This document shows positions 14,135 to 31,893 of a DNA stretch of 64,000 nucleotides, piece after piece (the stretch's first letter is position 1; the number at the start of each line of letters is the position of its first letter). Source of the DNA: Candidatus Peregrinibacteria bacterium (lineage in GTDB: Bacteria; Patescibacteriota; Gracilibacteria; UBA1369; LOWO2-01-FULL-3); NCBI GenBank assembly GCA_026395515.1, contig JAPLYN010000005.1, forward strand, positions 423,521 to 487,520. Direction: 5' to 3'. The notes beneath the pieces were generated by a model. It was not told the DNA's origin and made no database searches. It worked only from the letters and a program-made list of their open reading frames with translations. The position numbers and the translations under genes are program-made.

Positions 14135-14764
14135 ATGTGTTTCTCCGCAGCAGCAAGTTTTTCTTCAGGGATTGCCTTAAGTGGCGTCGGTACAGCAGCG
14201 CTAATTAAAAATAAAGAAAAGAGATCCATTCCTCTCGCAAGTATTCCATTATTTTTTGGAATTCAACAACTTTTCGAAGGATTTGTTTGGAGCAGTTTAG
14301 CAACATCACAATGTCACCAAGTTGCAGTGTATGGATTTTTAGCATTCGCTTTAGTATTTTGGCCATTCTATTCTCCACTCGCATTTTTTCTCGCTGAAAA
14401 AAATATTGTTCGCAAAAAAATTCTTTTGGGATTATTTGCATTAGGAACAATCGTTTCAATTTATTTTCTTGGAATAATGCTCACTCAACCAATATCTTCA
14501 GAAGTCACAAAGAACAGCATCCAGTACATATTAGATGCACCTCTAGTAGTTTTCTTCACCTTAATATACTTCATCGCTACTTGTGCCTCAGCAATTTTGT
14601 CTTCACATAAAAGATTAACTGTTTTCGGAATTTTTCTTACAATATCTCTAGCAATAGCTTTGTATTTTTATTTTATTACATTTACATCAGTCTGGTGTTT
14701 CTTCGCAGCAATTTTAAGTTTAATAATATTTTCACACATTAATGAAAGCTCTAAAAAAATATAG
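14135..14764 (+). CDS. polytopic membrane protein, DUF6629-like
   Basis: MCFSAAASFSSGIALSGVGTAAL...GIQQLFEGFVW; about six TM segments. Confidence 0.75.
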   Translation: MCFSAAASFSSGIALSGVGTAALIKNKEKRSIPLASIPLFFGIQQLFEGFVWSSLATSQCHQVAVYGFLAFALVFWPFYSPLAFFLAEKNIVRKKILLGLFALGTIVSIYFLGIMLTQPISSEVTKNSIQYILDAPLVVFFTLIYFIATCASAILSSHKRLTVFGIFLTISLAIALYFYFITFTSVWCFFAAILSLIIFSHINESSKKI

Positions 14765-15599
14765 AGGAATAAAATCTTTTACATCAACAGTTCTATTCGT
14801 TTCAATAATTATTTCAGGCTGTGGAAACATTGTTAATACAGAAAAAAACAAACCAACTGACAAAACTGCAACAACTCAAATTACAGATCAAAAACCTGTA
14901 ATAAAAGAAGTGCCAGCAGTAAAAACAGAACAACTTATAGTAGAACACGGACCACGCGACAAAAAAAATATTGCACTTACTTTTGATGCGGACATGACAC
15001 CCTCAATGCTAAAAAAACTTCAAACTAAAAAAGTTAAAACACTTTACGATAAAAGAATCACCGACACGTTGGAAGAAACTTCTACTCCAGCTACAATTTT
15101 CATCACAGGATTGTGGGCAGAAACTTATCCAGAAGAAACAAAAAACCTAAGCAAAAATCCACTTTTTGAAATTGCCAATCACTCTTTAACTCATGGAAGT
15201 TTCACAAAGGAATGCTACGGTTTAGGGCTAGTTCCAGATAAAAACAAAGAACTATCTGAAACACAAAAAATTCTCAAAGAACTTACAAATCTCACGCCAA
15301 AATATTTTCGCTTTCCTGGAGGTTGTTACAGAAAAGAAGATTTAAAAATAGTAGCGAATGAAGGACTTATTCCAGTTCAATGGGACGTAATTTCCGGCGA
15401 CGCATTTCAAAAAGACAGCAGCAAAATATCCAGCACAGTAATAAATAAAACTACAAACGGATCTATCATAGTAATGCATCTAAACGGTGCTCCAAACGCT
15501 CCAGGAACAGCAGAAGCTCTACCTTCAATCATCAAAGAACTAAAGAAAAAAGGTTATACTTTCGTCAAGATGTCCGAGCTATTAAGCGGTAATCGTTAA
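14742..15599 (+). CDS. polysaccharide deacetylase lipoprotein
   Basis: Lipobox ISGCGN; ALTFDADMT; ANHSLTHGSF; FRFPGGC; overlaps upstream CDS by 23 nt. Confidence 0.88.
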   Translation: MKALKKYRGIKSFTSTVLFVSIIISGCGNIVNTEKNKPTDKTATTQITDQKPVIKEVPAVKTEQLIVEHGPRDKKNIALTFDADMTPSMLKKLQTKKVKTLYDKRITDTLEETSTPATIFITGLWAETYPEETKNLSKNPLFEIANHSLTHGSFTKECYGLGLVPDKNKELSETQKILKELTNLTPKYFRFPGGCYRKEDLKIVANEGLIPVQWDVISGDAFQKDSSKISSTVINKTTNGSIIVMHLNGAPNAPGTAEALPSIIKELKKKGYTFVKMSELLSGNR

Positions 15600-16496
15600 G
15601 GCTTTTTTAGATTTCAAAAAGAAATAACCAATTGTTACAAATGTAGCTACAGGAGATGCCCATTGTGGAACTGCAACTCCAAAAGCATCAGTTAACATAA
15701 TCACACCCAAAAATAAAATGGAATACATCGCTCCATTTTTTAAATAAATATATTTTTTAACTCTATCAATATTACCAACAGTTAATTGTCTAACAACCAA
15801 AGCTCCCAAACCATTACCCAATAAAATCAATGGTACAGACAAGGTAAAAGCGAAAGCACCTAACACTCCATCAATAGAAAAAGTTGCATCGATAACTTCC
15901 AAATAAAGAATTTTACTAATGTCTGATAAATGTTTTTTTGTTAAACTTTTTTCACTCTCTTCAGCATTTTGTTTAAATCCATGTGTAATAAAAAATGCAG
16001 ATGATCCAACCACCGCGCCGAATGCCATCATTGGATTTTGCTTCAATGCAAACCAAACTATAACGGCCAAAACCACTGATACTGTAGCGAAAAACCACAC
16101 TCCGTTTTTAACAAAAAATTTTTCAAAACGTGGCAAACCAAAATGTTTTTCTTCCAAAAATAACCAATGCAAAAATAAAAATACTAAAAATATTCCACCA
16201 CCTGCCATTAAAATTGGTGCTGCCATTTCAATAGATTCTTTCACATGAGGATCATTACTAAACGTTGCAGTGAGTGCTTCGATAGGACCAAGTGAAGGAT
16301 TTACAGCCCAAATAATTAACCAAGGCAAAAGACCTCGTATCAAAAAAACGGCTATTAGAAGCCCCCAAACAAGAAACCATTTTCTAGCTTTTGGTTTCAT
16401 CGTAGAAAGTACTTCAGCATTTATCACTGCATTATCAATGCTAGAAATAACTTCAAAAACACAGAGGCCTAAAACAATTAAAATCATCGTCAACAT
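15582..16496 (-). CDS. DUF475/TerC-like integral membrane protein
   Basis: EVISSIDNAVINAEVL...EVIDATFSIDGVLGAFAFT. Confidence 0.88.
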   Translation of the reverse strand: MLTMILIVLGLCVFEVISSIDNAVINAEVLSTMKPKARKWFLVWGLLIAVFLIRGLLPWLIIWAVNPSLGPIEALTATFSNDPHVKESIEMAAPILMAGGGIFLVFLFLHWLFLEEKHFGLPRFEKFFVKNGVWFFATVSVVLAVIVWFALKQNPMMAFGAVVGSSAFFITHGFKQNAEESEKSLTKKHLSDISKILYLEVIDATFSIDGVLGAFAFTLSVPLILLGNGLGALVVRQLTVGNIDRVKKYIYLKNGAMYSILFLGVIMLTDAFGVAVPQWASPVATFVTIGYFFLKSKKALTITA

Positions 16497-16665
16497 ATTT
16501 TTTTTAAATAAAAAAATTTTCTAAATATTAATCCTAAAAAAAATAAAAATAAACCAAATAGAAATAATGGCTTAGGCAAAAGGAAATAATCATGTCGTAA
16601 ATTTTAAATAAAAAAATAAATAAAAAATTAAACTTCGAAATCATGCTTTGCACTGCGAGAAACAC

Positions 16666-16693
16666 TTGCAATTTAATTTAAAAAAATCATAAT
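16666..16693 (+). promoter_or_regulatory. putative promoter TTGCAA-N16-CATAAT for the Lys-rich sORF
   Basis: -35 16666-16671, -10 16688-16693, predicted TSS ~16700. Confidence 0.5.
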
Positions 16694-16719
16694 GAAAACA
16701 CTCATTAACCTCACTCCTA

Positions 16720-16806
16720 ATGGCTCCTAAAAAAGGAAAGAAAGTAGTAAAGAAAGCTAAGAAAGTACTTAAGAAAGTTAAGAAAGCAAAAAAAGGAAAG
16801 AAATAA
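16720..16806 (+). CDS. 28-aa lysine-rich small protein MAPKKGKKVVKKAKKVLKKVKKAKKGKK
   Basis: Short ATG-TAA ORF between a promoter-like element and a strong terminator; 16 of 28 residues are Lys, no acidic residues. Confidence 0.6.
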   Translation: MAPKKGKKVVKKAKKVLKKVKKAKKGKK

Positions 16807-16831
16807 ATTCCTTCTTCTTAGTTTTAAAAAG

Positions 16832-16856
16832 ACACTCGTAATTCGAGTGTTTTTTT
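16832..16856 (+). terminator. intrinsic terminator
   Basis: ACACTCG-taatt-CGAGTGT followed by TTTTTT. Confidence 0.85.
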
Positions 16857-16968
16857 GTGTCCAAATTAAAACCCGGCAACAAGTAAAATTAATCACCATT
16901 TTTTACATCTTGACTTAATCTGTTAAAAGTCCTAGATTTAAACCAATCTATTCATAACCAACAAAACC

Positions 16969-17187
16969 ATGGCAGTCGCAGCTTATGCACACAAAAACAG
17001 CAAAGGTCAGACTTATTACCTCCACTCAAAGAACGTAACACTTCGTGGTGGTCGTAAACAGGTTATTTACTACTTCGCTCGTGAAGTAAAACCAGGAGCA
17101 CTTGAGGCTCTTCCAGAGGGTAAGTCAGTTGTAGAAAACAAGAGAACTGGTCTTCCACTAGTAAAAGGTTCTGCAAAAAAGAAATAG
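16969..17187 (+). CDS. small conserved hypothetical protein (72 aa)
   Basis: MAVAAYAHKNSKGQTYYLHSKNVTLRGGRKQVIYYFAREVK...; own terminator downstream. Confidence 0.8.
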   Translation: MAVAAYAHKNSKGQTYYLHSKNVTLRGGRKQVIYYFAREVKPGALEALPEGKSVVENKRTGLPLVKGSAKKK

Positions 17188-17215
17188 TAATCAGAACAAA
17201 ATCTCAAATCAAAAG

Positions 17216-17243
17216 CACCTCGCCAAAAGCGGGGTGTTTTTTT
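17216..17243 (+). terminator. intrinsic terminator
   Basis: CACCTCGC-caaaa-GCGGGGTG + T7. Confidence 0.88.
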
Positions 17244-17286
17244 GTAAAAAATTAAGCTAAGATAAAAGCATCCTCACCCAAATTCT

Positions 17287-18498
17287 ATGAAAAAAAATAA
17301 TTTTCTCATAATTGGAACAAGTACTTTTTTGCTATTCTCAAATTTATCTTCAGCAAAAATTTTTACAGACATAAAAGAGAATGATAATCATTATATAGCT
17401 TCAAGATATCTTTCTGAGAAAGGCATCATTAACGGATATGGCGATGGTACTTTTAAACCGACCCAAGACATTACTCGCGCCGAATTATTAAAAATAATTT
17501 TTGAAGGAAATAAAACTCAAACATCCAATCCAAATACAAATTGTTTTCCAGATGTTGGATATCAAGAGTGGTACAGCAAATATATTTGCACAGCAAAAGA
17601 TTTAAAAATTATAAAAGGATACGATGACGGCAATTTCGAACCAAACAAAACATTAAACAAAGCAGAAGCTTTAAAAATTCTAGGAGAATTCTACAAATGG
17701 AATACCTCAGACAAAGAAAATCAGGCTTGGTACAGCAAATATATAGACTTCGGTAAAAATAAAAATCTATTGGAAAATAGTGATGTATTTGATCCTTCAG
17801 CAAACATGAGCCGTGGTGAAATATCAGAAACTCTTTATAGATTTTTAGCCAACACAGAATATAAATCAGAAAAATTTTCTGATGACATTGAAAATAAAAT
17901 TGCAATAAAAATAAATGCAGAAGATATTGCAAATGAAGACTCACCAAATACTGACAAAACTATTTCTCGTAACTTGCCTACTCCAGAAATAGTTCAACTA
18001 ACTCCTGGAGAGATAAAGGTAGTTTTCAGCTGGGAGATGCCAATAATTCCACCAGAACAAGAAAAAACAGAATTCAATTCCTACCTATTGGAACCAACTG
18101 ACGAAGAAATTTCCTATCAACATAAAATAGATAGCAAAGTTGATACTATTTTAGAAACCACAAATAATTCCGAAACGTATACTATTCGAAATATAAAATC
18201 TGACGCAACTGTAGACGGACAAATAAAAAATTACGTTTTCTTCGCCCAAGCTTTCAATGGAACAACAACTTTTGCCGATGCAAAAGTAAAAATAGATATT
18301 TTCGACAAAAACGGCTTAGTGAAGACAATTATTGCATATCAAAAAGACGAAAACACAATGCCGATTGGAAACAGAATTTGGAAAATATTCACACTAGATG
18401 AAAATTATGAATTGAAAATTTTTAATTCAATCGGATCCTGCGACCTCATGAATCAAAGTAGAAATTCTGGTGTCTGCCCTTATGGACTAATAGATTAA
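17287..18498 (+). CDS. S-layer homology (SLH) domain surface protein
   Basis: Signal peptide and three SLH-like repeats (FTDIKENDNHYIASRYLSEKGIINGYGDGTFKPTQDITRAELLKII, etc.). Confidence 0.9.
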   Translation: MKKNNFLIIGTSTFLLFSNLSSAKIFTDIKENDNHYIASRYLSEKGIINGYGDGTFKPTQDITRAELLKIIFEGNKTQTSNPNTNCFPDVGYQEWYSKYICTAKDLKIIKGYDDGNFEPNKTLNKAEALKILGEFYKWNTSDKENQAWYSKYIDFGKNKNLLENSDVFDPSANMSRGEISETLYRFLANTEYKSEKFSDDIENKIAIKINAEDIANEDSPNTDKTISRNLPTPEIVQLTPGEIKVVFSWEMPIIPPEQEKTEFNSYLLEPTDEEISYQHKIDSKVDTILETTNNSETYTIRNIKSDATVDGQIKNYVFFAQAFNGTTTFADAKVKIDIFDKNGLVKTIIAYQKDENTMPIGNRIWKIFTLDENYELKIFNSIGSCDLMNQSRNSGVCPYGLID

Positions 18499-18500
18499 AT

Positions 18501-19055
18501 CTATTCCACCCATTTAATAGAACATCCCATTGAGGGATGTTGAGGTTCAGAAACTTTTTCGCATTTTAAAATTGTATCAATAGCCTCTGAAAGTTCTTGT
18601 TTTGTGACTTTAGATTCATCCTTCCAGCTATCATCAATTCGGCCATGGTAAGCCAATTTCCGTTCATTATCATAAACAAAAATATCAGGTGTGCATTGAG
18701 CTTCATATTCACGAGAAACTTTTTGATCAATATCAATTAGATAAGGGAAATTCATCTTTCTTTCCGCAAATTCTTTTTGCATATTTTCAAAACTATCTTC
18801 TCCGTAATTAGAATTTGCAGCATTAGCATTAATTCCCACAAACTGAACTCCCAATGTTTTAAATTTTTCCTGCAAATTAATTAATCTCTGCCAAACAGCT
18901 TTCACATAAGGACAATGATTGCACATGAAAACAATCACTAAAACCCTAGCCTCTTTAAATCGATCTAAGGTGTAAATTTCATTATCTACACCTTTAAGTT
19001 CGAAGGTCTTAGCTGGCTCCCCCATGCTGATTTTTAACGATTCTAGCAGTGTCAT
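18501..19055 (-). CDS. thioredoxin/peroxiredoxin-like (AhpC/TSA-type) protein
   Basis: VLVIVFMCNHCPYVKAVWQRL...FPYLIDIDQKVSREYEAQCTPDIFVYD. Confidence 0.88.
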   Translation of the reverse strand: MTLLESLKISMGEPAKTFELKGVDNEIYTLDRFKEARVLVIVFMCNHCPYVKAVWQRLINLQEKFKTLGVQFVGINANAANSNYGEDSFENMQKEFAERKMNFPYLIDIDQKVSREYEAQCTPDIFVYDNERKLAYHGRIDDSWKDESKVTKQELSEAIDTILKCEKVSEPQHPSMGCSIKWVE

Positions 19056-19065
19056 ATTGTTTTAT

Positions 19066-20586
19066 TTAACGACCAATCTTCTCATCATGCATTCTACGAA
19101 TTTCAATGCGATTCAAAACATCAATCAACGCTTTACCTGATGCAATTGTAATGTCTGTATCAGAACCATGTCCATACCAAATTTTTTCGTACTGATCCTG
19201 CCATTCAATTTTCACGAAACCAACCGCCTCTTTATCCGGAGTAAGTGCATTGATATTAAAAGAAGTTAATTTCCCTTTCAAACCAGTAGCTTTAATAATC
19301 GCAGCATAAAGAGCAGAAACCGGACCATCACTCTCACAAACCATATTTATTTTTTCATCACCTATTCTAATAACTGCGTCAGCTTTCGCAGATTTATCTT
19401 TTTCAGAATAAATTTTAGCATCAACCAATTCATATTTTTTCTCAATATCATAATCCATCGCCACCATAATTAAATCCTCATCATAAATATTTTTCTTCTT
19501 GTCTGCCAAAGCTTTAAATTTAGCAAAAATAATTTCCATTCTCTCTTTAGAAACCTGAATTCCCAACTGAATCAAACGGCTTCCCAAAGCGCTTTTACCA
19601 GAATGTTTGCCCAAAACTAATTGATTTGTAGATCTACCAACATCCTCAGCTTTCATAATTTCGTAAGTCAAACGATTGGATAAAATTCCATGCTGATGAA
19701 TTCCAGCTTCATGAGCAAAAGCATTTTTACCAACAATAGATTTATTTGCTTGAACCTTCTGTCCGGTAATTTGCGACAACAATTTACTAGTCGCATAAAG
19801 TTGTTTCGTATCGATATTTATTTTTTCTTTAAACAAATCTGGACGCGTCTTCATAGCCATCACCACTTCTTCCAAAGCTGCATTTCCAGCTCGTTCGCCA
19901 ATACCATTTATAGTACATTCAATCTGACGTGCACCATTCATCACGCCAGCTAAACTATTGGCTACTGCAAGCCCTAAATCATCATGACAATGAGTTGAAA
20001 AAATCACTTTATCTGCCCCAATAACTTTCTCTTTCAAATATTTTATCAAAGCTCCATATTCCTCCGGCGTGCTGTATCCCACAGTATCCGGAATATTTAA
20101 AGTATCAGCGCCAGCCTTCACAGCTTCATTCAAAATTTCCACCAAAAAATTCCAATCAGACCTTGTCGCATCTTCCGGAGAAAAATCCACCATGTCCGTA
20201 AAAGACTTTGCCATTTTCACACCCATAATTGCTTTTTTAATTGCCTCGTCACGAGAAATTTTCAATTTATGCTCCAAATGTATATCGCTAGTGGCAATGA
20301 ACACGTGAATACGAGGCTTTGCAGCAGTTTTCAAAGCTTTGATAGTAGATTCTATGTCCATTTCGTTACAACGCGCTAAACCGCATATTTCAGCCTTCTG
20401 GCAGACTTCGCCAATTTGCTTCACAGACTCAAAATCCTCAGGCGAAGCAGCAGAAAAACCAGCTTCAATTACATCAACTCCTAAATTTTCCAACTGCTGC
20501 GCCATCATTAATTTTTCTCTCAAATTCATAGAAAAACCAGGCGACTGCTCTCCATCTCTCAAAGTTGTATCAAATATTTTAATCAT
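19066..20586 (-). CDS. leuA: 2-isopropylmalate synthase
   Basis: FDTTLRDGEQSPG, HCHDDLGLAVANSLAG, GERAGNAALEEVVMAM, LeuA C-terminal dimer domain. Confidence 0.96.
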   Translation of the reverse strand: MIKIFDTTLRDGEQSPGFSMNLREKLMMAQQLENLGVDVIEAGFSAASPEDFESVKQIGEVCQKAEICGLARCNEMDIESTIKALKTAAKPRIHVFIATSDIHLEHKLKISRDEAIKKAIMGVKMAKSFTDMVDFSPEDATRSDWNFLVEILNEAVKAGADTLNIPDTVGYSTPEEYGALIKYLKEKVIGADKVIFSTHCHDDLGLAVANSLAGVMNGARQIECTINGIGERAGNAALEEVVMAMKTRPDLFKEKINIDTKQLYATSKLLSQITGQKVQANKSIVGKNAFAHEAGIHQHGILSNRLTYEIMKAEDVGRSTNQLVLGKHSGKSALGSRLIQLGIQVSKERMEIIFAKFKALADKKKNIYDEDLIMVAMDYDIEKKYELVDAKIYSEKDKSAKADAVIRIGDEKINMVCESDGPVSALYAAIIKATGLKGKLTSFNINALTPDKEAVGFVKIEWQDQYEKIWYGHGSDTDITIASGKALIDVLNRIEIRRMHDEKIGR

Positions 20587-20625
20587 AATTTTTTAGTTTA
20601 ATTGTTTTAATAATAATTTTAAAAT

Positions 20626-21714
20626 TTATATTTTCCCGCCACGGAGATTTTCTACTATTTTATTTCCCATTTCAGATGTAGAAACAGCTTTTCCACCATC
20701 CGCTATATCTCCGGTCCTCAAACCTTCAGCTAAAGTTTTTTCAACTGCATTTAAAATTGCATCGTGTTCTTCAGTCATACCAAAAGAAAATTTCAACATC
20801 ATCGCTGCGGATAAAATTTGCCCAATTGGATTTGCAATTCCCTTGCCGGCAATATCCGGCGCACTACCGGATGACGGCTCATATAAGCCAAATCCTCGTT
20901 CATTCAAAGACGCAGAAGGAAGCATCCCTAACGATCCAGCAAACACACTTACTTCATCAGAAATAATATCTCCAAACATATTTGGCATTAAAATTACATC
21001 AAAATCTCCAGGCCTTTTAAGCACCTGCATACTCATATTATCCACAAGCACATGTTCTAAAACACAATCAGGATAATTTTTCGCCACATTCGTCACTGCT
21101 TCTCTCCACAATTTACTACAGTTCAAAACATTGGCTTTATCGACCGAAGTCACCTTTTTCTTGCGTACTTGAGCCGCCTTAAAAGCCGCATGTGCAATAG
21201 CCTCAATCACCTTTTCATCATAAGACATTTCATCAAAGGCATGACGCATACCGACTTCCCCACTCATCTCATGTTTTCCGAAATAAACATCCTGAGAAAG
21301 TTCACGCACACAAAGCATATCAATTCCTTTATCCACAATATCCGATCTCAAAACACAAGCATCTTTCAATGCAGAATATAATTTCACCGGTCTTAAATTC
21401 ACATTGAAATTAAAATGCTTACGAATTGCCAAAATAGAATTAGTCTCACAATTTTTCCATTTTGGTTCCATCTGCTTATCTACGGGGCCACCGACAGAAC
21501 CAAATAAAATAGCATCAGTATTTTCTGAAACACTTACTGTTTCCTCAGGAAAGTGTTCGCCGTATTTTTCCCATGCAGATCCACCAATTAGCCCTTCTAC
21601 ATATTCAAATTTATGCCCAAAAATTTCCTCAATTTTTCGTAGAACTTTCAAAGCCTCCGCCATAATTTCTGTACCAATTCCATCACCAGCCAAAACTGCT
21701 ATTTTTTTATTCAT
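20626..21714 (-). CDS. leuB: 3-isopropylmalate dehydrogenase
   Basis: AVLAGDGIGTEIM, FGSVGGP, NMFGDIISDE, GSAPDIAGKGIANPIG. Confidence 0.97.
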   Translation of the reverse strand: MNKKIAVLAGDGIGTEIMAEALKVLRKIEEIFGHKFEYVEGLIGGSAWEKYGEHFPEETVSVSENTDAILFGSVGGPVDKQMEPKWKNCETNSILAIRKHFNFNVNLRPVKLYSALKDACVLRSDIVDKGIDMLCVRELSQDVYFGKHEMSGEVGMRHAFDEMSYDEKVIEAIAHAAFKAAQVRKKKVTSVDKANVLNCSKLWREAVTNVAKNYPDCVLEHVLVDNMSMQVLKRPGDFDVILMPNMFGDIISDEVSVFAGSLGMLPSASLNERGFGLYEPSSGSAPDIAGKGIANPIGQILSAAMMLKFSFGMTEEHDAILNAVEKTLAEGLRTGDIADGGKAVSTSEMGNKIVENLRGGKI

Positions 21715-22295
21715 AAAACTTTTGTATCAAAAAATATATTTTTAGAATGCCTCTTATCAAAACTTTTAATTTCAGACATTTGAGAAACTAAATAAGCCAA
21801 GTCATCCATATCTTTCAAAAGACATTCTTTTCTATATGAATCAATTTCAAAATTAAACACTTCGCCATTCGGCAAAATCACTTTTTGAGCAGCAACATTT
21901 ACTTCAATTTCACAATCTTCTTTAGCAAAAATTTCGCTCACAATTTTTTCATCCAAAATAATCGGCAAAATTCCATTTTTCATTGCATTATTAAAGAAAA
22001 TATCCGCAAAAGACGGAGCAATCACAACCTCAATTCCCCAGTCTCTAAGCGCCCAAGCGGCATGTTCGCGCGAACTGCCACAACCAAAATTCTTCCCAGC
22101 AACTAAAATCTTCGCTTCCCTATATTTCGCCAAATTAAATGGAAAATTTGACTCCATCATTCTTAATCTCGCAAAAACATGTTCACCTAATCCCTTCTTA
22201 CTTGTCGTGGTTAAAAAATCAGCAGGAATAATAAGATCAGTATCAATATCCTCTCGAGGCAATGGAATAATTTTAGATTTAATAATTTCCCTCAT
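21711..22295 (-). CDS. leuD: 3-isopropylmalate dehydratase small subunit
   Basis: DTDLIIPADFL, GKNFGCGSSREHAAWAL; 4-nt ATGA overlap with leuB. Confidence 0.96.
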   Translation of the reverse strand: MREIIKSKIIPLPREDIDTDLIIPADFLTTTSKKGLGEHVFARLRMMESNFPFNLAKYREAKILVAGKNFGCGSSREHAAWALRDWGIEVVIAPSFADIFFNNAMKNGILPIILDEKIVSEIFAKEDCEIEVNVAAQKVILPNGEVFNFEIDSYRKECLLKDMDDLAYLVSQMSEIKSFDKRHSKNIFFDTKVL

Positions 22296-22301
22296 AAGTT
22301 T

Positions 22302-23672
22302 TTAGATTAATTTTCTTACATCTGTAATTTTTCCAGTCACAGCTGCAGCAGCCGCCATAATCGGACTCATTAAATGAGTGATAGCACCCTTTCCCTGACG
22401 ACCCACAAAATTTCTGTTACTGGTGGAGGCACATCGTTTTCCTTCCGGAACTTTATCCTCATTCATTGCCAAACACATACTGCATCCAGGATTGCGGAAA
22501 TCCGCACCAGCATCAGTAAAAACCTTATCTAAACCTTCCTTAATAGCCGCCTCACGCACAGATTCAGAACCCGGCACTACATACACAATCACACCATCCG
22601 CCACTTTTCTTCCCTTAAAAATCCTCGCAGCTTCTCTCAAATCAGACAATCTCGCATTCGTACAGGAACCAATAAAAACATAATTCACCGGCACACCTTC
22701 AATTTTCTGACCTGCTTCCAGCCGCACGTAATCCAAAGCCTGCACATCTGCATTCTCAGGAATAACTTCACTCACTTCAATTCCTTGCCCGGGATTAAAA
22801 CCCCAAGTCACCATCGGCGCCATTTCATCAACATTAACTTCAACAACATTGTCATATTCCGCATCCACATCACTAACTAAGGAACTCCAATATTGAAGAG
22901 CCTGAGCCCATTTCTCTCCTTTCGGTGCACATTCCCTACCTTTCAAATATTCAAAAGTAACCTCATCCGGTGCAATCAATCCAGCACGTGCTCCACATTC
23001 AATACTCATATTACAAATCGTCATGCGCTCATCCATCGACATCTTCCTCACGACCTCGCCAGTATATTCAATGACATGCCCTCGCGCGCCCGCCACACCA
23101 ATTTGAGAAATTAATTTTAAAATTAAATCTTTTGCCGTCACACATTCACCAATCTTCCCAATAAAATTCACTTTCATCGTCTTCGGTTTTTCTTGCAACA
23201 AACAACCTGTCGCCATCACATGCCCCACTTCCGTCGTCCCAATTCCAAAAGCCAAAGCTCCAAAAGCACCATGAGTCGAAGTATGACTATCTCCACATAC
23301 AACAGTAATTCCTGGCTGAGTTAAGCCTAATTCAGGTCCGATCACATGCACAATTCCTTGCCTGCCACTATCCATATCTATCAACTTCACACCAAATTCC
23401 TCACAGTTTTTTCTCAAAGTCATAATTTGTTTTTGAGAACCAGCATCAGTCGCAATTTTTCTATTCACGGCTGTAGAAACATTATGATCCACTGTCGCCA
23501 CAGCACGATCGCTCGCATGAAATTTCAAACCTTTTTCCCTCAACATTTCAAAAGCCTGCGGCGAAGTCACCTCATGTATCAAATGCAAATCTATTGCAAA
23601 CACATCAGGAAAACCTTCCTTACTCACCACTACATGTTCATCCCAAATTTTCTGAATTATATTTCTTGCCAT
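22302..23672 (-). CDS. leuC: 3-isopropylmalate dehydratase large subunit
   Basis: VVCGDSHTSTHGAFGALAFGIGTTEVGHVMATGC, FIGSCTNARLSDL, NPGCSMCLAMN. Confidence 0.97.
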   Translation of the reverse strand: MARNIIQKIWDEHVVVSKEGFPDVFAIDLHLIHEVTSPQAFEMLREKGLKFHASDRAVATVDHNVSTAVNRKIATDAGSQKQIMTLRKNCEEFGVKLIDMDSGRQGIVHVIGPELGLTQPGITVVCGDSHTSTHGAFGALAFGIGTTEVGHVMATGCLLQEKPKTMKVNFIGKIGECVTAKDLILKLISQIGVAGARGHVIEYTGEVVRKMSMDERMTICNMSIECGARAGLIAPDEVTFEYLKGRECAPKGEKWAQALQYWSSLVSDVDAEYDNVVEVNVDEMAPMVTWGFNPGQGIEVSEVIPENADVQALDYVRLEAGQKIEGVPVNYVFIGSCTNARLSDLREAARIFKGRKVADGVIVYVVPGSESVREAAIKEGLDKVFTDAGADFRNPGCSMCLAMNEDKVPEGKRCASTSNRNFVGRQGKGAITHLMSPIMAAAAAVTGKITDVRKLI

Positions 23673-23697
23673 CGCTATAAAATTTTAAGAATACAAA

Positions 23698-23726
23698 TAA
23701 AAAACACCGACCATATGCGTCAGTGT
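23698..23726 (-). terminator. leu operon attenuator terminator
   Basis: Minus strand ACACTGAC-gcatatg-GTCGGTGT (8 bp with one G:U) followed by TTTTTT, between leader ORF and leuC. Confidence 0.85.
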
Positions 23727-23739
23727 GTAAGTTCTATAG

Positions 23740-23813
23740 TTATTACAAACACTAACGCAAAATTAGTCTCCCTAGAAGAAGGAGTCCTAAATTCTGTACG
23801 TCGTTTGTAATAA
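23740..23813 (-). promoter_or_regulatory. attenuator pairing regions 1 and 2: perfect 11-bp inverted repeat TTATTACAAAC/GTTTGTAATAA
   Basis: + strand 23803-23813 and 23740-23750 are exact reverse complements; region 2 can also pair with the 5' flank of the terminator. Confidence 0.75.
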
Positions 23814-23826
23814 TTCTATTTTTCAT
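23752..23826 (-). CDS. leuL-type leader peptide MKNRIITNDVQNLGLLLLGRLILR
   Basis: ATG...TAG, 24 codons, 7 Leu codons including four consecutive (CTC CTT CTT CTA), just upstream of terminator and leuCDBA. Confidence 0.85.
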   Translation of the reverse strand: MKNRIITNDVQNLGLLLLGRLILR

Positions 23827-23840
23827 AATTGTGCCCTCAG

Positions 23841-23867
23841 ATTATTCGTGAAGCACAAAAGTGTCAA
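23841..23867 (-). promoter_or_regulatory. leu operon promoter (TTGACA-N15-AATAAT)
   Basis: Consensus -35 TTGACA (23862-23867), -10-like AATAAT (23841-23846); implies a leader of under 15 nt before the leader peptide ATG. Confidence 0.6.
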
Positions 23868-25012
23868 GAAAAGAATTTTCCAAGAGCCGCTTTCACCTGA
23901 TCTCTTTGAGCATCTCTCAACCTAAAAGGAATTGAATGAGAAAGATCCGGCAATTCATTAACATCAACCTTATTCTTTAAACCTTTTCTACCAACAAATT
24001 CAGGCAAATCCATAATCGCATTATCTGGAATCAATTTGTCTTTACCACCTTTCCAAACAGTAAGATCCACACCATCACCAGTCCCATCTTTACTAAAAAC
24101 ATCTTTGAATTTTCTAGTTGGATTTAAAGTTAATTGTAAAAACCTTCTCGCAGAATCCGGCACACTACGAGCATATTGCTCAGCATCTCTAAAACTTTCA
24201 TCTCCAAACATAATACGATGGTAATCTTGTTCATTTAAAGAAAGAGCACCCTTACCAGGAATAGCTTGTTTCAAAGACTCCATTACCTGTTTTCTCACAG
24301 CCCATAAAAATCTCGCCCTCACCATCGCAAAAGGTCCATCCACAGCCGGCATCATGCTTAAAAATTTTCTAACACGCAAATCCTCATCCCTATTTCTTCT
24401 TCCAGGCCCTTCTCCATAATTCAAACTATCCAAAAAAGATATTGCATCCAAAGACCCCATGGAATGACCCATTACAGCCACATTGGGCACATATCTTTTA
24501 TCCCCAAAATATCCTCTCATCATAAGTACATTCGCAATATTAGAAGAATCTTTAACTTCATCCATCATCCCAATAGCGGAAATACGACCTCTACTTTCAT
24601 CCTGGATATAATCTGGTGTACCTCTACCAGAAGGATTTATTCCAAGAACTTTAGGATTTTCAAAACCAGCTTCCTGTAATACTTCTAATACCAAATTTAG
24701 AAAATCTCCTTCAAACTGTGCAGAAGTTTCCCCCCAACCAGGCAAAATCGGTACAATCACATCATGCCTAGCATTTGCGCCCAACTGCGGAGCAACCTCT
24801 GTAATTGCTCTCTTTTGAGTTGAAAAAGAAGTCCCCATCTCATCACCTCTCAAATTAAGAAAAGAAACCTTGAATTGATATTGTCTTCCACTAACTTCAA
24901 TTACTCCATTTTTTTCTTCATAATGTTTATCTTTTTCATTCCAAGCAGACTGAAAATCATTCAATCTGTGTTCAGGTTGAAGATCTAATTGGGCTTCAGA
25001 ATTTGATTCCAT
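23864..25012 (-). CDS. alpha/beta hydrolase-like protein
   Basis: VAVMGHSMGSLDAISFL nucleophile-elbow motif (GHSMG); late His in ELPDLSHSIPF. Confidence 0.7.
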   Translation of the reverse strand: MESNSEAQLDLQPEHRLNDFQSAWNEKDKHYEEKNGVIEVSGRQYQFKVSFLNLRGDEMGTSFSTQKRAITEVAPQLGANARHDVIVPILPGWGETSAQFEGDFLNLVLEVLQEAGFENPKVLGINPSGRGTPDYIQDESRGRISAIGMMDEVKDSSNIANVLMMRGYFGDKRYVPNVAVMGHSMGSLDAISFLDSLNYGEGPGRRNRDEDLRVRKFLSMMPAVDGPFAMVRARFLWAVRKQVMESLKQAIPGKGALSLNEQDYHRIMFGDESFRDAEQYARSVPDSARRFLQLTLNPTRKFKDVFSKDGTGDGVDLTVWKGGKDKLIPDNAIMDLPEFVGRKGLKNKVDVNELPDLSHSIPFRLRDAQRDQVKAALGKFFS

Positions 25013-25092
25013 AAATTTTAAATATTATTACAAAAAAAGAGGCGAAAGCATAACATCTTCCGCCTCATCTGTCAATCGTCTACTGAAAACCT

Positions 25093-26631
25093 TTAGAACT
25101 GGTTCCAAATCCACTGATTTGCCACTTCATGGTGATAAAGTACTTCACCAGTCTTTACCTTTGTTCCCAAAGATTTCGGAGAACGTTCAGCTGCCATATA
25201 TTTCAATGCAGCATATTTTTGTTGATTTTCTTCACCGATAATATCTTTCACGAAATCACTAGCTTCAAAGTGTTCCAAAGCTTCATAGATATTTCCAGGA
25301 AGCTTCTTCACTTTTCCTCCATAAACTTTCTTCTCCATCTTTGCTAATTCCTCCGCACTAGCTCTCATGCCCACCAAACCAGCCTTAATAATGCCGTAGA
25401 AAGCCAAATATGGATTTGCATCTGGAGCTACAGTACGTACTTCAATTCTTGAGCTCTTTTCGTTTCCAATAGGAATACGCACCATTGAACCACGATCTAC
25501 CGCAGAAACTTTAATTTCATTTGGTGCTTCAAAGTGTGGATCCAAACGACGATAAGCATTCACACTGGAGTTAATCAAAAGACAACAATCATTCGCGAAA
25601 TACAAAATTCCAGTAGTAACTTTACGAGCAGTTTCAGAAAGAGACCATTCACCTGCTTTATCGTAGAACATATTTACGCCATCTTTTGAGAATGACATAT
25701 TTGTATGCATACCACTTCCATTCAAACCTTGAATTGGCTTAGGCAAGAAACAAGCTGTGAATCCCATAGAAGCAGCTACCTGACGAGCTAATAATTTATA
25801 AATTTGAATCTGATCAGCTGCATCTAAAGCTACAGAATACCTGAAGTTCAACTCAAACTGTGCAGGTGCAACTTCCGGATGATCTTTTTCATTTTGGAAA
25901 CCTAGAGCCCTTTGTACTTCCGCAAACTTATCAATAAAAAGTCTAAGAGTATCCTGTGGCAATGAGCTAAAATAACCACTCATTGTAGCTAATTCAAAAC
26001 CAACTTTCTCACTAAATTCCTGTTCCACTTTTTCACCTTTGAATAAAAATCCTTCAATTTCTGGAGCAATATTTACAGTAACTCCTTCTTTTGTACGAAG
26101 TTCATCGCATAAAGCAGCAAGATTTGAACGGAAATCAGATTTATACAAAGTACCATCCTTGTCACAAACATTTCCAAATACTAAAACTTTTCCCGCACCA
26201 AAAAGATCTGACGGAAGCCATCTAAAAGTAGACCAATCAGCCTTTAAACGAAGATCAGACTGAGACTGAGCAGTAAAACCACGAATAGAAGATCCATCAA
26301 AAGTAAGATTATCTTCAGAACTCAAAATAAATTTCTTATCATAATCCAACATATGCAAACGTCCTTCTAAATCAGAAAAACACACCACCACAGCTTTAAT
26401 TCCAGCTTCATTCTTCAAATAATCCAAAAACTTTCCTTTCAACGCATCACTTGGAGTTCCTTTCAAACGTTCCATTTTTACTTCTAAGTTTTTTTCTTCC
26501 AACTCTGAATAAGAAAGATCTAACAAATTTGGCTGCTTCCATAACACCGCACCATACTCACGCTCTCTTCCCTTAATTCCTACCCTTTCAGTTGTCTTAG
26601 TCCCAACTGCTCCTAGAACGTTGTCTGACAT
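25093..26631 (-). CDS. glnA: glutamine synthetase (type I-like)
   Basis: DGSSIRGF, PEIEGFLF, HPEVAPAQFELNFR, GSGMHTNMSF, NEIKVSAVDRGSMVRIP, RIEVRTVAPDANPYLAF. Confidence 0.95.
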   Translation of the reverse strand: MSDNVLGAVGTKTTERVGIKGREREYGAVLWKQPNLLDLSYSELEEKNLEVKMERLKGTPSDALKGKFLDYLKNEAGIKAVVVCFSDLEGRLHMLDYDKKFILSSEDNLTFDGSSIRGFTAQSQSDLRLKADWSTFRWLPSDLFGAGKVLVFGNVCDKDGTLYKSDFRSNLAALCDELRTKEGVTVNIAPEIEGFLFKGEKVEQEFSEKVGFELATMSGYFSSLPQDTLRLFIDKFAEVQRALGFQNEKDHPEVAPAQFELNFRYSVALDAADQIQIYKLLARQVAASMGFTACFLPKPIQGLNGSGMHTNMSFSKDGVNMFYDKAGEWSLSETARKVTTGILYFANDCCLLINSSVNAYRRLDPHFEAPNEIKVSAVDRGSMVRIPIGNEKSSRIEVRTVAPDANPYLAFYGIIKAGLVGMRASAEELAKMEKKVYGGKVKKLPGNIYEALEHFEASDFVKDIIGEENQQKYAALKYMAAERSPKSLGTKVKTGEVLYHHEVANQWIWNQF

Positions 26632-26870
26632 AATATTGTGGTTAAAAAATTAAATATTATGTAATTCTAATACTAAGAGTCCGAACTATTGGCAATATCA
26701 ATAAAATTAAGACAAAAACACTGTCGAAAACTCCAGAAACATCAAAATAGACTGAGACAGTCGCAATTAACATATTCCTCCAAGCTGGGCTTGTCGGAAA
26801 AAGCTACAACAATAAAAGAATTGCATCATTTTCGTAAACATTGTGAAATCAAAATTTCACAACCAACACC

Positions 26871-28139
26871 TTAAATGAAAAATAACGACACAGCACCCAC
26901 AAAAGAAATCAAAATTGCTACCAAACTAACCTTTTTTGCCAATTCTTTATCGGCAAAGATGAAAAATATACCAATTTTCAACAAAGTATTCACTATACCA
27001 CCAAGCACAATAGCTATCGCCGCTGCATCTGGAGTTACCTCAGTTTTTGCTAAACTAGACATCGACACCGTAACCGCATCCACATTAAAGAATCCAAAAA
27101 TCGTACTTACCAAATAGACACTGTTGTTACCAACACTTGCCATCGCAACTTTGAAAACCAAAAGAAAAAGTGCAAATAAAGCTCCGAATTTCAAAGCCGG
27201 CATCAGACTAAAAGGACTTTGCATTCCCATAACATGCTTATCCAAAACATTGCCTTCTTTTTCACTTCTCTTCATCATCAATAACGAAATCAAACATCCT
27301 GTAAAAGACATAGCCAACAATGGAATCAAAACATGAATTAAAAGTTCCTGATTCAAAACAGCAACCTCAAAAATCATTTTCAAAAACATCGCCGAAATAG
27401 CTATCGTAATAGCAGTAAGATAGGAAGAATTAGCCTTTGAATTCACTCGACTCTGGTTAGATACACTAACAGACAAAGCAGTAGTTGAAATAAAACCAGT
27501 CAAAAAACCAGTCAAATTAAGTCCTCTCTTTGGACCCAACAGTTTAATTCCGACATAACTTACAAAAGAGATTCCTGAAATAAAAACCACTAAAAGCCAG
27601 ATTACATAAGGATTAAAAAAATCATAGGGACCAAAATTGCTATTAGGCAAAAGTGGTAAAACTATGAAGGCAATAAGAATAAATTCCATAGTAGAAAAAA
27701 GTTCCTGAAATTTAATTTTTTTAGCCCATCTATGCAAAGGCTTCTTCAACATCAACAACATCAAAACGATGAATGCCACCGTTGTTGCATCAAAGAAAAG
27801 TGCCATTCCGCACAAAATTCCAATAATATAAACCAAAATTGAAGCTACTTCAGAAGTAATCCCTAAACTACCATATTTTTCTCCACTGATAACGTAACTA
27901 GCAATAATTAATGCCAACAAAGCTACGGCAACGACCACAAAGAAAATAATAGAATAAGTAGACAAAATATAAGACAAAGCTCCAGCAAGACTGATCAAAG
28001 CAAAAGTTCTTACTCCACCAAAGCTATCATTATCCTTATTTGTTGAATGCTCCAACTGATGTTTACGCTCACGCTCCAAACCAATTAAGGCTCCGAGAGC
28101 TGTAGCCAAACCCAATTGCTGCAATATCATTAAATTCAC
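26871..28139 (-). CDS. MgtC/SapB-DUF4010 family membrane protein
   Basis: LGLATALGALIGLERERKH... and C-terminal DUF4010-type TM domain. Confidence 0.88.
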   Translation of the reverse strand: MNLMILQQLGLATALGALIGLERERKHQLEHSTNKDNDSFGGVRTFALISLAGALSYILSTYSIIFFVVVAVALLALIIASYVISGEKYGSLGITSEVASILVYIIGILCGMALFFDATTVAFIVLMLLMLKKPLHRWAKKIKFQELFSTMEFILIAFIVLPLLPNSNFGPYDFFNPYVIWLLVVFISGISFVSYVGIKLLGPKRGLNLTGFLTGFISTTALSVSVSNQSRVNSKANSSYLTAITIAISAMFLKMIFEVAVLNQELLIHVLIPLLAMSFTGCLISLLMMKRSEKEGNVLDKHVMGMQSPFSLMPALKFGALFALFLLVFKVAMASVGNNSVYLVSTIFGFFNVDAVTVSMSSLAKTEVTPDAAAIAIVLGGIVNTLLKIGIFFIFADKELAKKVSLVAILISFVGAVSLFFI

Positions 28140-28195
28140 AAAAAATTCTTAGAAAAATATCTAAGAATTATAGCACAAAATGAGGAAATATCCTA

Positions 28196-28387
28196 CTATT
28201 TTGCTTTACAGAAAGTCTTTAAACCACGAGCTGAAAGTCTCAACTGTACCTTTTTGCCTGTTCTCGGATCGATGAGAGTTCTCTTCATCATGTTTGGCAA
28301 ATACTTACGGTTTGAAGCATTCATAGCATGGCTACGAGTGTTACCTGTACCTGTTTTTCTACCTGAAATTTCGCAGATTCTTGACAT
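28196..28387 (-). CDS. rpmB: 50S ribosomal protein bL28
   Basis: MSRICEISGRKTGTGNTRSHAMNASNRKYLPNM...VQLRLSARGLKTF. Confidence 0.96.
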   Translation of the reverse strand: MSRICEISGRKTGTGNTRSHAMNASNRKYLPNMMKRTLIDPRTGKKVQLRLSARGLKTFCKAK

Positions 28388-28500
28388 AAATTTCTTTAAA
28401 AAAGCAGTGGCATTCTAACAACTTTATATCAAATAGCAACTGAATTTTGGGTATTTTAAGGAAATATGTTAATTTTAGAACATAAAATAAACTTTGAATC

Positions 28501-29865
28501 ATGAAAAATATACGTCTAGAAGAAGATTCCATGGGTAAGGTAGAAGTTCCTGCCGAAGCCTATTCCGGCGGCCAAACCGCCCGTGCTCAACACAACTTTC
28601 AGATCAGCGGACACATTGCACCAGCAATTTTCAGACAAGCCTTGGGAATGGTAAAGCTCGCTGCAGCACAAACAAACACTTCTCTCGGGCTCATAGACAA
28701 AAAACATTCCAAAGCAATTATTCAAGCCTGTGAAGAGTTTATTGCTGGTAAATTCGATGCTGACTTCATTTTAGACGTATTTCAAGCCGGCGCCGGTACT
28801 AGCTACAATATGAATGCCAACGAAATCATTGCCAATCGCGCTAATGAAATTCTCGGAGGTAAAAAAGGCGAATATAAGTTTGTTCATCCAAACAATCACG
28901 TCAATATGGCTCAATCCACTAATGACGTAATTCCTACAGCCACTAGAATTGCCACACTCCTTTCAATTCCTGGACTTCTCCAATCTCTAAACAATTGCGA
29001 AGAAACTTTCGAAAAAATCGCTAAAAAACACGCAAAATTGATAAAAGTAGGACGCACACACCTAGAAGACGCTGTACCAATCACTCTAGGCCAAGAATTT
29101 GACTCCTACAAAGAGGCTCTACACAAAGCCGGTGAATTCATCGCAAATCAAAGCGGAGACCTCCAAACGCTCGGAATTGGCGGTACAGCAGTAGGTACAG
29201 GTATCAATACTCACGCAAAATATCGCGAAACAATGGTGAAGAATCTTACTAAACTCATTGGTCTTCATTTTGAATCAGGCAAAAATCTCACAGAAATGGC
29301 CAACAATATGAATGGCTTTTTAAATTTTTCTGCAACACTAAGATCATTAGCTGTAAACACTCTAAACATCTGCAGCGATCTCAAACTAATGAATATGGGT
29401 CCAAAGGCCGGAATTGCCGAAATCACTCTTCCAGGAGTACAACCGGGTTCATCCATCATGCCGGGAAAAGTAAATCCTTCCATTCCAGAATGTCTCGAAA
29501 TGATTTGTATGCAAGTTCTCGGCAACGACAAAACTATTGAGATTGCCTGCCAGAAAAGCAATTTCGAACTCAATGTCTTCTGCCCTATCATTATGTGGAA
29601 TCTTCTTCAATCCATGGAAATTCTCAGCAACGGATTAAAGATGCTCAATGAATTCGCACTGAAAGATCTTCAAATCAACGAAAAACAAATCAAGAAACTT
29701 TTTGAAGAAAGTCTCTGCACTGCCACTTCCCTCTCTCCAAAACTCGGCTACGCATTAACAGCAGAGATAGTAAAAGAAGCATTGAAAAAAGGTACTACCA
29801 TACGAGATGAAGTACTTTCCAGAAAACTCTTGAGCAGCAAAGAAGTAGATGAATTAATTGGCTAA
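28501..29865 (+). CDS. fumC: class II fumarate hydratase/aspartase family (probably fumarase)
   Basis: GSSIMPGKVNPSIPE signature, NMNANEIIANRA, VHPNNHVNMAQSTNDVIPTA. Confidence 0.85.
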   Translation: MKNIRLEEDSMGKVEVPAEAYSGGQTARAQHNFQISGHIAPAIFRQALGMVKLAAAQTNTSLGLIDKKHSKAIIQACEEFIAGKFDADFILDVFQAGAGTSYNMNANEIIANRANEILGGKKGEYKFVHPNNHVNMAQSTNDVIPTATRIATLLSIPGLLQSLNNCEETFEKIAKKHAKLIKVGRTHLEDAVPITLGQEFDSYKEALHKAGEFIANQSGDLQTLGIGGTAVGTGINTHAKYRETMVKNLTKLIGLHFESGKNLTEMANNMNGFLNFSATLRSLAVNTLNICSDLKLMNMGPKAGIAEITLPGVQPGSSIMPGKVNPSIPECLEMICMQVLGNDKTIEIACQKSNFELNVFCPIIMWNLLQSMEILSNGLKMLNEFALKDLQINEKQIKKLFEESLCTATSLSPKLGYALTAEIVKEALKKGTTIRDEVLSRKLLSSKEVDELIG

Positions 29866-30455
29866 AGCAAAACCATATTCTTGATCATATTTTCAAACAC
29901 ATCCTTTTCTAAAAGGTAATATTTGCTAGGCAACTTCATATAAACATCGTAAATGATGCTTTTATCTTTGCTCATAGCAAAAAAGTGTATGGTCGCATCT
30001 ATATAAATTCCATCATTCACATAAAAACCACTGATTGTCCCATAATCAGCGAACTGAAAAGTATAACCTTTATATTTTCTAGAAATAAAATCATTTAAAT
30101 CCTTATAATCTTCGATATTTTCAAAAGGCGTAATATAAATTTGAACCATATAATTCTCATATGGATCCTTCTTATTCGGATTCTTAGGAGGAACTGTATA
30201 TTTCTCAAAAACCACACCAACATCATCACTTAAATATTTTACTTTGTATCCTTTCGGAAAAGCTCGAAGACCAAAATTATATTTTTTACTTTCATAAACA
30301 AAATCAGATTTCGTCTGAGTATCAGTTTTTTGCTGCAAAGAAGTAGTAGCCGCAATATTACTAGTCGCCAAAGTATCAACTTTTACCGGTTTCACTTCCG
30401 GTCCACAACCGACAATAAAAAGTGCTAAGAGAGGAATAAGAGAAAACTTTTTCAT
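29862..30455 (-). CDS. lipoprotein, hypothetical
   Basis: Lipobox LFIVGCG at N-terminus. Confidence 0.7.
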   Translation of the reverse strand: MKKFSLIPLLALFIVGCGPEVKPVKVDTLATSNIAATTSLQQKTDTQTKSDFVYESKKYNFGLRAFPKGYKVKYLSDDVGVVFEKYTVPPKNPNKKDPYENYMVQIYITPFENIEDYKDLNDFISRKYKGYTFQFADYGTISGFYVNDGIYIDATIHFFAMSKDKSIIYDVYMKLPSKYYLLEKDVFENMIKNMVLL

Positions 30456-30552
30456 GAGAAAACTTTAATCAAAAAACAGCTTTAATGCAAACTTCTCTAC
30501 AATAAGCCATTCTCTCACTTGCCAATTCTTTAAATTATTGTAAATTGATCTC

Positions 30553-31185
30553 ATGCGTATTTCAGAAATTTTTTATAGCATTCAAGGCGAAGGGACAAAC
30601 ATCGGTACACCAGCCATTTTTATCAGGCTTGCTGGTTGTCATTTACGTTGTGTTTGGTGCGATAGCAAATTCACTTGGGATATGAAATCAGGAAAAGAAA
30701 TGAGTACAGCTTCAATCATCAAAATTATCAAAAAATATCCCTGCAAACATTTAGTTATTACAGGAGGAGAGCCATTAATTCAACAATCTGGAATTAAAGA
30801 ATTATTATCAAAACTACCAGATTATTACGTGGAAATTGAAACCAGTGGCACTATCGTTTCTTTCATCAACGAATTCATCAACCAGTACAATTGCTCACCT
30901 AAATTAAAAAATTCCAAGAATAGACCAATGGCATTGCAAAAATTTCCCGCAGAAAAAAGTTGGTACAAATTTGTGGTAGATAAAAAATCTGACGTAAAAG
31001 AAATTAAAGAAATGATAAAAAAATATTCTCTACCAAAAGAAAAAATAATTCTCATGCCCCAAGGAATTACTCGAGAAGAAATGACTAAAAAATCGCCATG
31101 GATAGCGGAAATTTGCAAGAAAGAAAACTGGCATTTTTCTACCCGTCTTCATATAGAAATATGGGGAAATAAGAGAGGAGTATAA
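30553..31185 (+). CDS. queE: 7-carboxy-7-deazaguanine synthase (radical SAM)
   Basis: FYSIQGEGTNIGTPAIFIRLAGCHLRCVWCDSKFTWD; TGGEPLIQ. Confidence 0.93.
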   Translation: MRISEIFYSIQGEGTNIGTPAIFIRLAGCHLRCVWCDSKFTWDMKSGKEMSTASIIKIIKKYPCKHLVITGGEPLIQQSGIKELLSKLPDYYVEIETSGTIVSFINEFINQYNCSPKLKNSKNRPMALQKFPAEKSWYKFVVDKKSDVKEIKEMIKKYSLPKEKIILMPQGITREEMTKKSPWIAEICKKENWHFSTRLHIEIWGNKRGV

Positions 31186-31227
31186 CAGGCACCGAAGGTG
31201 CCAAATATAAAATAAGAAAATCCAACA

Positions 31228-31893
31228 GTGAAAATAACTAAATCAACCTCAGCCATCATCCTTCTCTCTGGAGGACAAGACTCCACCACCTGCCTCGCTT
31301 GGGCAAAGACAAAATTCGACAAAGTATATGCCCTCACTTTGCACTACGGACAGCTCCACAAAATAGAATTAGAATCAGCAAAAAAAATTGCCAAATTAAA
31401 CAAAGTTCCTCTTAAAATCTATAAAACAGATCTTTTCAAAGAATTCACAAAAAGCGCTTTAACCAACAAAGAGATAGCCATCAAAGTTCACAAAAATAAA
31501 CTTCCAAGCACTTTCGTTCCAGGAAGAAACTTAATTTTCCTTTCCATCGCTGCCATCTATGCAAAACAACTTGGCGTCACAAATATCATCACCGGTGTCT
31601 GCCAAACAGATTACAGCGGCTATCCAGATTGTCGTGATGATTTCGTAAAATCTTTAGAGACAACTATCAGTCTCGCCATGGAAACTCCTTTCAAAATTCA
31701 CACTCCACTCATGTGGCTTACCAAGGCTGAGACAGTGAAATTAATGCAGCAGTTAGGCAAAATTGAGCTTCTCAAACACAGCCACACCTGCTATAAAGGA
31801 AGCCGACCAGCCTGCGGCAAATGCCCAGCCTGCCTACTCCGACTCAAAGGTTTCAAAGAAGCCGGAATAAAAGATCCAATACCATACAAATAA
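31228..31893 (+). CDS. queC: 7-cyano-7-deazaguanine synthase
   Basis: LLSGGQDSTTCL PP-loop; four Cys near C-terminus (CYKGSRPACGKCPACLLR). Confidence 0.94.
   Translation: MKITKSTSAIILLSGGQDSTTCLAWAKTKFDKVYALTLHYGQLHKIELESAKKIAKLNKVPLKIYKTDLFKEFTKSALTNKEIAIKVHKNKLPSTFVPGRNLIFLSIAAIYAKQLGVTNIITGVCQTDYSGYPDCRDDFVKSLETTISLAMETPFKIHTPLMWLTKAETVKLMQQLGKIELLKHSHTCYKGSRPACGKCPACLLRLKGFKEAGIKDPIPYK

Follow-up and report, generated by a model that had tools for sequence, protein, structure and literature searches.

A predicted leucine attenuator with a near-leaderless leader peptide upstream of leuCDBA in a Peribacteria-lineage genome

CPR bacteria are reduced and mostly uncultivated, and are usually described as being without amino-acid synthesis. 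Proteobacteria provide documented or predicted cases of leader-peptide attenuation, and enterobacterial leuL combines a promoter, a short ORF with four consecutive Leu codons and competing antiterminator and terminator helices before the leu operon. Further cases, documented or predicted, come from Actinobacteria (PMC1262725) and Firmicutes (PMC2965389; PMC5794164). In Corynebacterium glutamicum, transcription of ilvBNC begins a single nucleotide ahead of the leader AUG, which has no ribosome binding site (PMC11857589); this near-leaderless, branched-chain amino acid (BCAA) leader peptide resembles the one described here, but belongs to an actinobacterium and an ilv operon and has another sequence and other hairpins. 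For Staphylococcus aureus ilv-leu, a leader with Ile and Leu codons and a terminator 52 nt after its stop codon has been predicted, with support from suppressor mutations (PMC5794164), but that leader has a ribosome binding site, and the proposed pairing partner of its antiterminator is the poly-U tail. The actinobacterial LEU element upstream of leuA also includes an upstream ORF in which Leu codons form a run (PMC1262725); it differs in forming a pseudoknot, the base stem of which pairs this run with the Shine-Dalgarno box of leuA, and is no classical terminator attenuator. A search of the open-access literature, with subscription journals and preprints outside its scope, returned no report of leader-peptide or transcription attenuation in CPR, Patescibacteria or Peregrinibacteria. 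The locus described here thus combines a known mechanism with an apparently new lineage.

The window, by which we mean the whole 64,000-nt stretch of DNA analysed, belongs to a genome of 1.30 Mb that is 99.93% complete. Its CPR-like character, suspected in the first-pass annotation, is borne out by LeuC, the closest named relatives of which are from Candidatus Peribacteria MAGs (86-88% identity), the next named match being at 63%; Peribacteria sit within Candidatus Peregrinibacteriota (NCBI taxonomy). The 63% match (L017, PEQL01000010.1) is from a MAG labelled Parachlamydia sp. BC.030, which is possibly misnamed or a mixed bin. On the minus strand from 23867 to 23672, TTGACA, 17 nt, TAATCT, 12 nt, ATG, the leader ORF, an antiterminator/terminator module and leuC follow one another. 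Below, L001 denotes the leader of this window, L002-L004 those of the other genomes of its genus, and L005 that of G011, a genome from another genus of the same family. The features are as follows.

23862-23867, minus strand: -35 box TTGACA, read from the sequence and identical in L002-L005
23839-23844, minus strand: -10 box TAATCT with a 17-nt spacer, read from the sequence
23752-23826, minus strand: leader ORF MKNRIITNDVQNLGLLLLGRLILR, 24 codons, stop TAG at 23754-23752, read from the sequence, kept in L002-L004 and analogous in L005
23773-23790, minus strand: control codons Leu13 (TTA), Gly14 and Leu15-18 (CTC CTT CTT CTA), read from the sequence
23803-23813, minus strand: region 1, the 5' arm of the protector helix, TTATTACAAAC, from sequence and folding
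23740-23750, minus strand: 3' arm of the protector helix, GTTTGTAATAA, overlapping region 2, from sequence and folding
23743-23759, minus strand: region 2, the 5' arm of the antiterminator, TGCGTTAGTGTttGTAA, holding the leader stop codon, from duplex calculation
23716-23730, minus strand: region 3, the 3' arm of the antiterminator, TTACACACTGACGCA, including the terminator 5' arm, from duplex calculation
23704-23726, minus strand: terminator hairpin 3:4, ACACTGAC-gcatatg-GTCGGTGT, -10.5 kcal/mol, from terminator pattern scan and folding
23699-23704, minus strand: U-tract TTTTTT, its first T shared with the stem, read from the sequence
22302-23672, minus strand: leuC, isopropylmalate isomerase large subunit (Pfam Aconitase, 7.6e-167)
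21711-22295, minus strand: leuD, isopropylmalate isomerase small subunit (Pfam Aconitase_C)
20626-21714, minus strand: leuB, isopropylmalate dehydrogenase (Pfam Iso_dh)
19066-20586, minus strand: leuA, isopropylmalate synthase with a LeuA_dimer domain (Pfam HMGL-like and LeuA_dimer)

The promoter upstream of leuCDBA is of the sigma-70 type. It had been annotated as TTGACA/AATAAT, of which TTGACA stands; AATAAT, with a spacer of 15 nt, is replaced by TAATCT because only the latter yields the 17-nt spacer shared by the five leu leaders, TTGACA and the 17 nt to the -10 box recurring in all four genus promoters and in the divergent L005 promoter. Leucine accounts for 7 of the 24 leader codons, four of them consecutive, and the protector arms TTATTACAAAC / GTTTGTAATAA form an exact 11-bp inverted repeat at 23813-23803 / 23750-23740; both had been pointed out in the first-pass annotation and are read directly in the DNA. 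The antiterminator that it proposed is also present, but is larger than described: TGCGTTAGTGT..GTAA and TTACACACTGACGCA form 15 pairs with one G:U and one 2-nt bulge, and none of 2,000 shuffles matched the strength of this 2:3 duplex (-18.0 kcal/mol). Helices 2:3 and 3:4 are mutually exclusive. The terminator with its T-run before leuC, likewise annotated earlier, was recovered by the pattern scan, and an intrinsic terminator sits between the leader ORF and leuC in L001 (U6) and L005 (-11.1 kcal/mol, U7) alike. Folding of 23690-23834 (minus strand) gave -37.9 kcal/mol, with z = -4.7 against dinucleotide shuffles. Elsewhere in the window, a strong intrinsic terminator (10 pairs, U7) directly follows the glutamine synthetase gene (25066-25039, minus strand), which suggests that this genome uses hairpin-plus-U-tract terminators. 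Taken with the modelling below, leuCDBA is very probably controlled by a leucine-responsive, ribosome-mediated transcription attenuator.

The leader also appeared nearly leaderless in the first-pass annotation, in agreement with a predicted 5' UTR of 5-6 nt. By prediction, the 5' UTR measures about 3-6 nt in the leu leaders, about 0-1 nt in several ilv leaders (see below) and 14-18 nt in two. None of the 15 genes at 14742-31893 of the window has a match of at least 3 nt to AGGAGG before its start, and the Peribacteria lineage may largely initiate without Shine-Dalgarno pairing. Among 13 leaders, only L001 and L136 have a Shine-Dalgarno match, and that of L001, the four nucleotides GAGG, lies upstream of the predicted start site and is absent in relatives. 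A leader 5' end at or near the AUG would mean that a ribosome could load once the 5' end exits the polymerase. Alternatively to transcription attenuation, the 3:4 hairpin could act mainly by impeding ribosomes at the start of leuC. Lying 11-31 nt ahead of the leuC start codon, the hairpin is close enough to hinder initiation, especially in L005; however, no part of the leuC start lies within it, leuC lacks a Shine-Dalgarno sequence that it could mask, its distance from leuC varies (19-31 nt in the genus) and the six to seven U directly after the hairpin are the mark of an intrinsic terminator. We therefore regard a translational effect as improbable and transcription attenuation as the better reading.

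Transcription attenuation is further supported by comparison among relatives. At this level, LeuC was present in 10 of the 90 genomes of the order and 25 of the 359 of the class, as well as in 8 of 384 genomes sampled across the phylum. A near-identical leader precedes leuC in all four genus genomes, which makes contamination unlikely. Within the genus, the leader ORF is 85-100% identical and the stretch from its stop to the U-tract 91-100%, compared with 55-65% at leuC third positions and 45-72% in the DNA further upstream. The leuC leader of G011, MIKFFIKSSAQKLMLLLGS, has its own three helices and U7. The L001 and L005 modules are only about 50% identical and thus not alignable, but both have the Leu run and three helices: 2:3 is formed by GCGTTAGTGT:ACACTGACGC in L001 and TTTGGTGC:GCGCCAAA in L005, and 3:4 by ACACTGAC:GTCGGTGT and GCGCCA:TGGCGC, respectively. 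Since region 3 serves both helices, their joint retention despite sequence replacement is strong comparative evidence. An antiterminator as strong as that of L005 occurred in 6 of 2000 shuffles. Conservation had been proposed as a check on the annotation, and the Leu run (of 3-4 in five genomes), helices and terminator are indeed kept in the four genus genomes and rebuilt with another sequence in the fifth. An AhpC/TSA-type gene follows leuA both in this genus (window 18501-19055, minus strand) and in G011 (L115:7574-8248, plus strand), so that synteny is partly retained around the leu genes even though the leaders cannot be aligned. LeuC relatives from elsewhere in the order, class and phylum (L006-L010, L013, L095-L109, L156-L159) had no leader combining a Leu run with a terminator.

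Chance was addressed with a scan for an ATG ORF of 8-40 codons with a run of control residues, followed 10-90 nt from its stop by a terminator of at most -8 kcal/mol with at least five T, plus a switch. Five of 24 class leuC upstream regions were positive, against 0 of 4,800 dinucleotide shuffles, and no leader was found at the other 19 class leuC genes scanned. The same scan before the first gene of the ilv operon, with I/L/V runs, returned 1 positive in 5,800 shuffles. Across 124 upstream regions (from the window and from sampled stretches around named loci) and six residue classes, only leuC and ilv-operon leaders scored. The weight lies on the shuffle counts and not on the thresholds, because these were set after the first cases were known. 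Combined over nine leaders, the antiterminator test gave p = 7e-11 (2.5e-5 for the two leu leaders alone), a value that assumes independent leaders, which is only partly true within a family. An argument from rare Leu codons was dropped: an apparent rarity relative to seven neighbouring minus-strand genes faded against the 15 window genes (P = 0.11 in this genome, not significant; P = 0.009 in G011, suggestive). It is highly unlikely that the hairpin is the ordinary terminator of an upstream gene and the Leu-rich ORF a product of chance. An alpha/beta-hydrolase-like gene does end at 23864, adjoining the promoter, yet in L003 the upstream sequence is different while leader and helices remain; against a chance ORF stand its conservation, the shuffle counts for the full combination and the recurrence of the same design with other sequences in L005 and the ilv leaders.

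The likeness to enterobacterial leuL claimed in the first-pass annotation holds for function and not for membership of its sequence family. Rfam searches at the gathering threshold and at E up to 10 gave no match at the leuC leader to Leu_leader (presumably RF00512), which makes the locus an analogue of leuL rather than a demonstrated homologue. Nor was a T-box (RF00230) or riboswitch match found there at gathering or relaxed thresholds, the relaxed-threshold matches being only noise (snoRNA models, anti-hemB). Direct sensing of leucine or tRNA by the leader RNA, or binding of a protein to it, with the ORF playing no part, would fit the high nucleotide-level conservation within the genus but is very hard to reconcile with the lack of a riboswitch or T-box match in Rfam, with the lack of alignable sequence between L005 and the genus leaders, unlike an expected aptamer, and with common features that consist of Leu codons and competing helices. 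Compared with leuL, the ribosome-mediated attenuator proposed here has a shorter leader, a region 2 that spans the leader stop codon and a near-leaderless 5' end without a Shine-Dalgarno sequence, and the gene order is leuCDBA rather than leuABCD.

We modelled the switch by masking the ribosome footprint and computing pair probabilities. With the stretch behind the ribosome excluded, placing the A site at Leu13, 15, 16, 17 or 18 gave P(2:3) of 0.89-0.95 and P(3:4) of at most 0.07, while a ribosome on the stop codon gave P(3:4) of 0.98. These models agree with the earlier proposals that stalling on the Leu run would free region 2 and that a ribosome finishing the leader would mask it and allow termination. 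Before region 4 is made, region 2 is predicted to capture the terminator 5' arm with a probability of 0.98-1.00 when the ribosome is stalled and no more than about 0.2 when it is on the stop codon, and the result for Leu13-18 is unchanged for an assumed leading edge of 8 to 18 nt. Leu23 comes too late in the leader to act, and Leu21 is a marginal case that varies with the assumed leading edge, so the run of four Leu falls within the effective stretch. The G011 leader behaved in the same way under masking, with a stop-codon state that depends on the footprint assumed, at 0.86 for 8 nt and 0.17 for 14 nt. E. coli K-12 leuL (MTHIVRFIGLLLLNASSLRGRRVSGIQH), passed through the same pipeline, behaves alike (stall 0.60, stop 0.01). 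At equilibrium with the RNA behind the ribosome free to pair ahead, the Leu16-18 stalls revert to 1:2 plus 3:4, which is a real limit of equilibrium models and means that switching requires either a ribosome that prevents such pairing or the order of folding during transcription. Without a ribosome, the L004 leader prefers 2:3 over 1:2 plus 3:4, so the translation-off default is not conserved.

Based on the promoter, we infer that the transcript begins about 5-6 nt before the leader AUG and that a ribosome loads onto this almost leaderless RNA in the absence of a Shine-Dalgarno sequence. When charged tRNA-Leu is sufficient, the ribosome would reach the stop codon and cover region 2, the 3:4 terminator would form and leuC would not be transcribed. 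When charged tRNA-Leu is scarce, a ribosome stalled on Leu13-18 would leave region 2 free to pair with the emerging region 3, which would block the terminator and permit transcription of leuCDBA. An untranslated leader would form 1:2 plus 3:4 and lead to termination.

In addition, a second attenuator is predicted in the same genome on another contig (L113, G000:C4:63000-82000), where the Ile/Val-rich leader MKKLALSLLIIVIIIL lies upstream of 13770 on the minus strand, before an ilv operon ordered PLP enzyme-LeuA_dimer fusion, ilvE, ilvD, ilvC, ilvB (ilvD named by PF00920; ilvE, ilvC and ilvB by sequence reading). The first gene (L113:11917-13770, minus strand) encodes a threonine synthase/dehydratase-like PLP enzyme (PF00291) with a C-terminal LeuA_dimer allosteric domain (PF08502); the fusion has near full-length matches in some 30 class genomes and is perhaps a feedback-controlled threonine deaminase. 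The leader is followed by CCCtgGAGAGA, which pairs with TCTCTCTGGG, and then by TCTCTGG-gtaaca-CCGGAGA-T8. Related leaders precede the PLP orthologue in G002, G011 (MKRLILIISVLIIIL), G013 (MHKFATIISIVVIIIF), G018 (MKYFAQAIIAIIIIL) and G010 (MNKSFSIISFVIIDL). Other families of the class have ilv leaders in G339 (MASTRLVVGLLIIPL, with perfect TTCCTAGAGA:TCTCTAGGAA) and G241 (MNKNIIIISP, with CGCGAGG:CCTCGCG), that of G239 (MKNTIIIIDL) being less clear. Two ilv leaders are weaker (L123 and L133, with antiterminators equalled by about 11-15% of shuffles), and the terminator of L134 was missed by the automatic finder. No ilv-type leader was found at three orthologues in the phylum outside the class. 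Upstream of the PLP gene in L125, L126 and L131, a T-box-like motif, AGGTGGTACC/ATC, replaces the leader peptide; L125 scores 30.3 bits against RF00230 (E 0.0015), short of the gathering score, and L126 and L131 have no Rfam match. Attenuators of trp and his were also sought, but small TrpR-family-like genes were found before trpE in this genome and before hisG in G003, and these operons seem to be repressor-controlled rather than attenuated. The gene directly before trpE (L154:462-822) matches Pfam Trp_repressor at 2e-22, and that directly before hisG (L148:894-1350) was assigned by eye.

Overall, the leuC leader is a well-supported predicted leucine attenuator, strengthened by its ilv sister; its transcription start, translation, termination and leucine response in the cell are the parts that we infer. 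More tentatively, and with slightly less than an even chance of being right, leu and ilv attenuators may have been invented or repeatedly rebuilt in Peregrinibacteria-type CPR using leaderless, Shine-Dalgarno-free initiation, with 5' ends that coincide with the AUG or lie a few nucleotides from it, and attenuators and T-box-like leaders may interchange before the ilv operon across the class. If the leucine attenuator is real, ribosome-mediated attenuation would extend to a deep branch without reports in the open-access literature searched, and coupled transcription-translation could be inferred from sequence in the Peribacteria branch. Sequence-unrelated leaders within one family would then show that switches are rebuilt while their logic is retained. 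In the Peribacteria lineage, the pathways for leucine and for isoleucine/valine have been retained, apparently under control by transcription-translation coupling.
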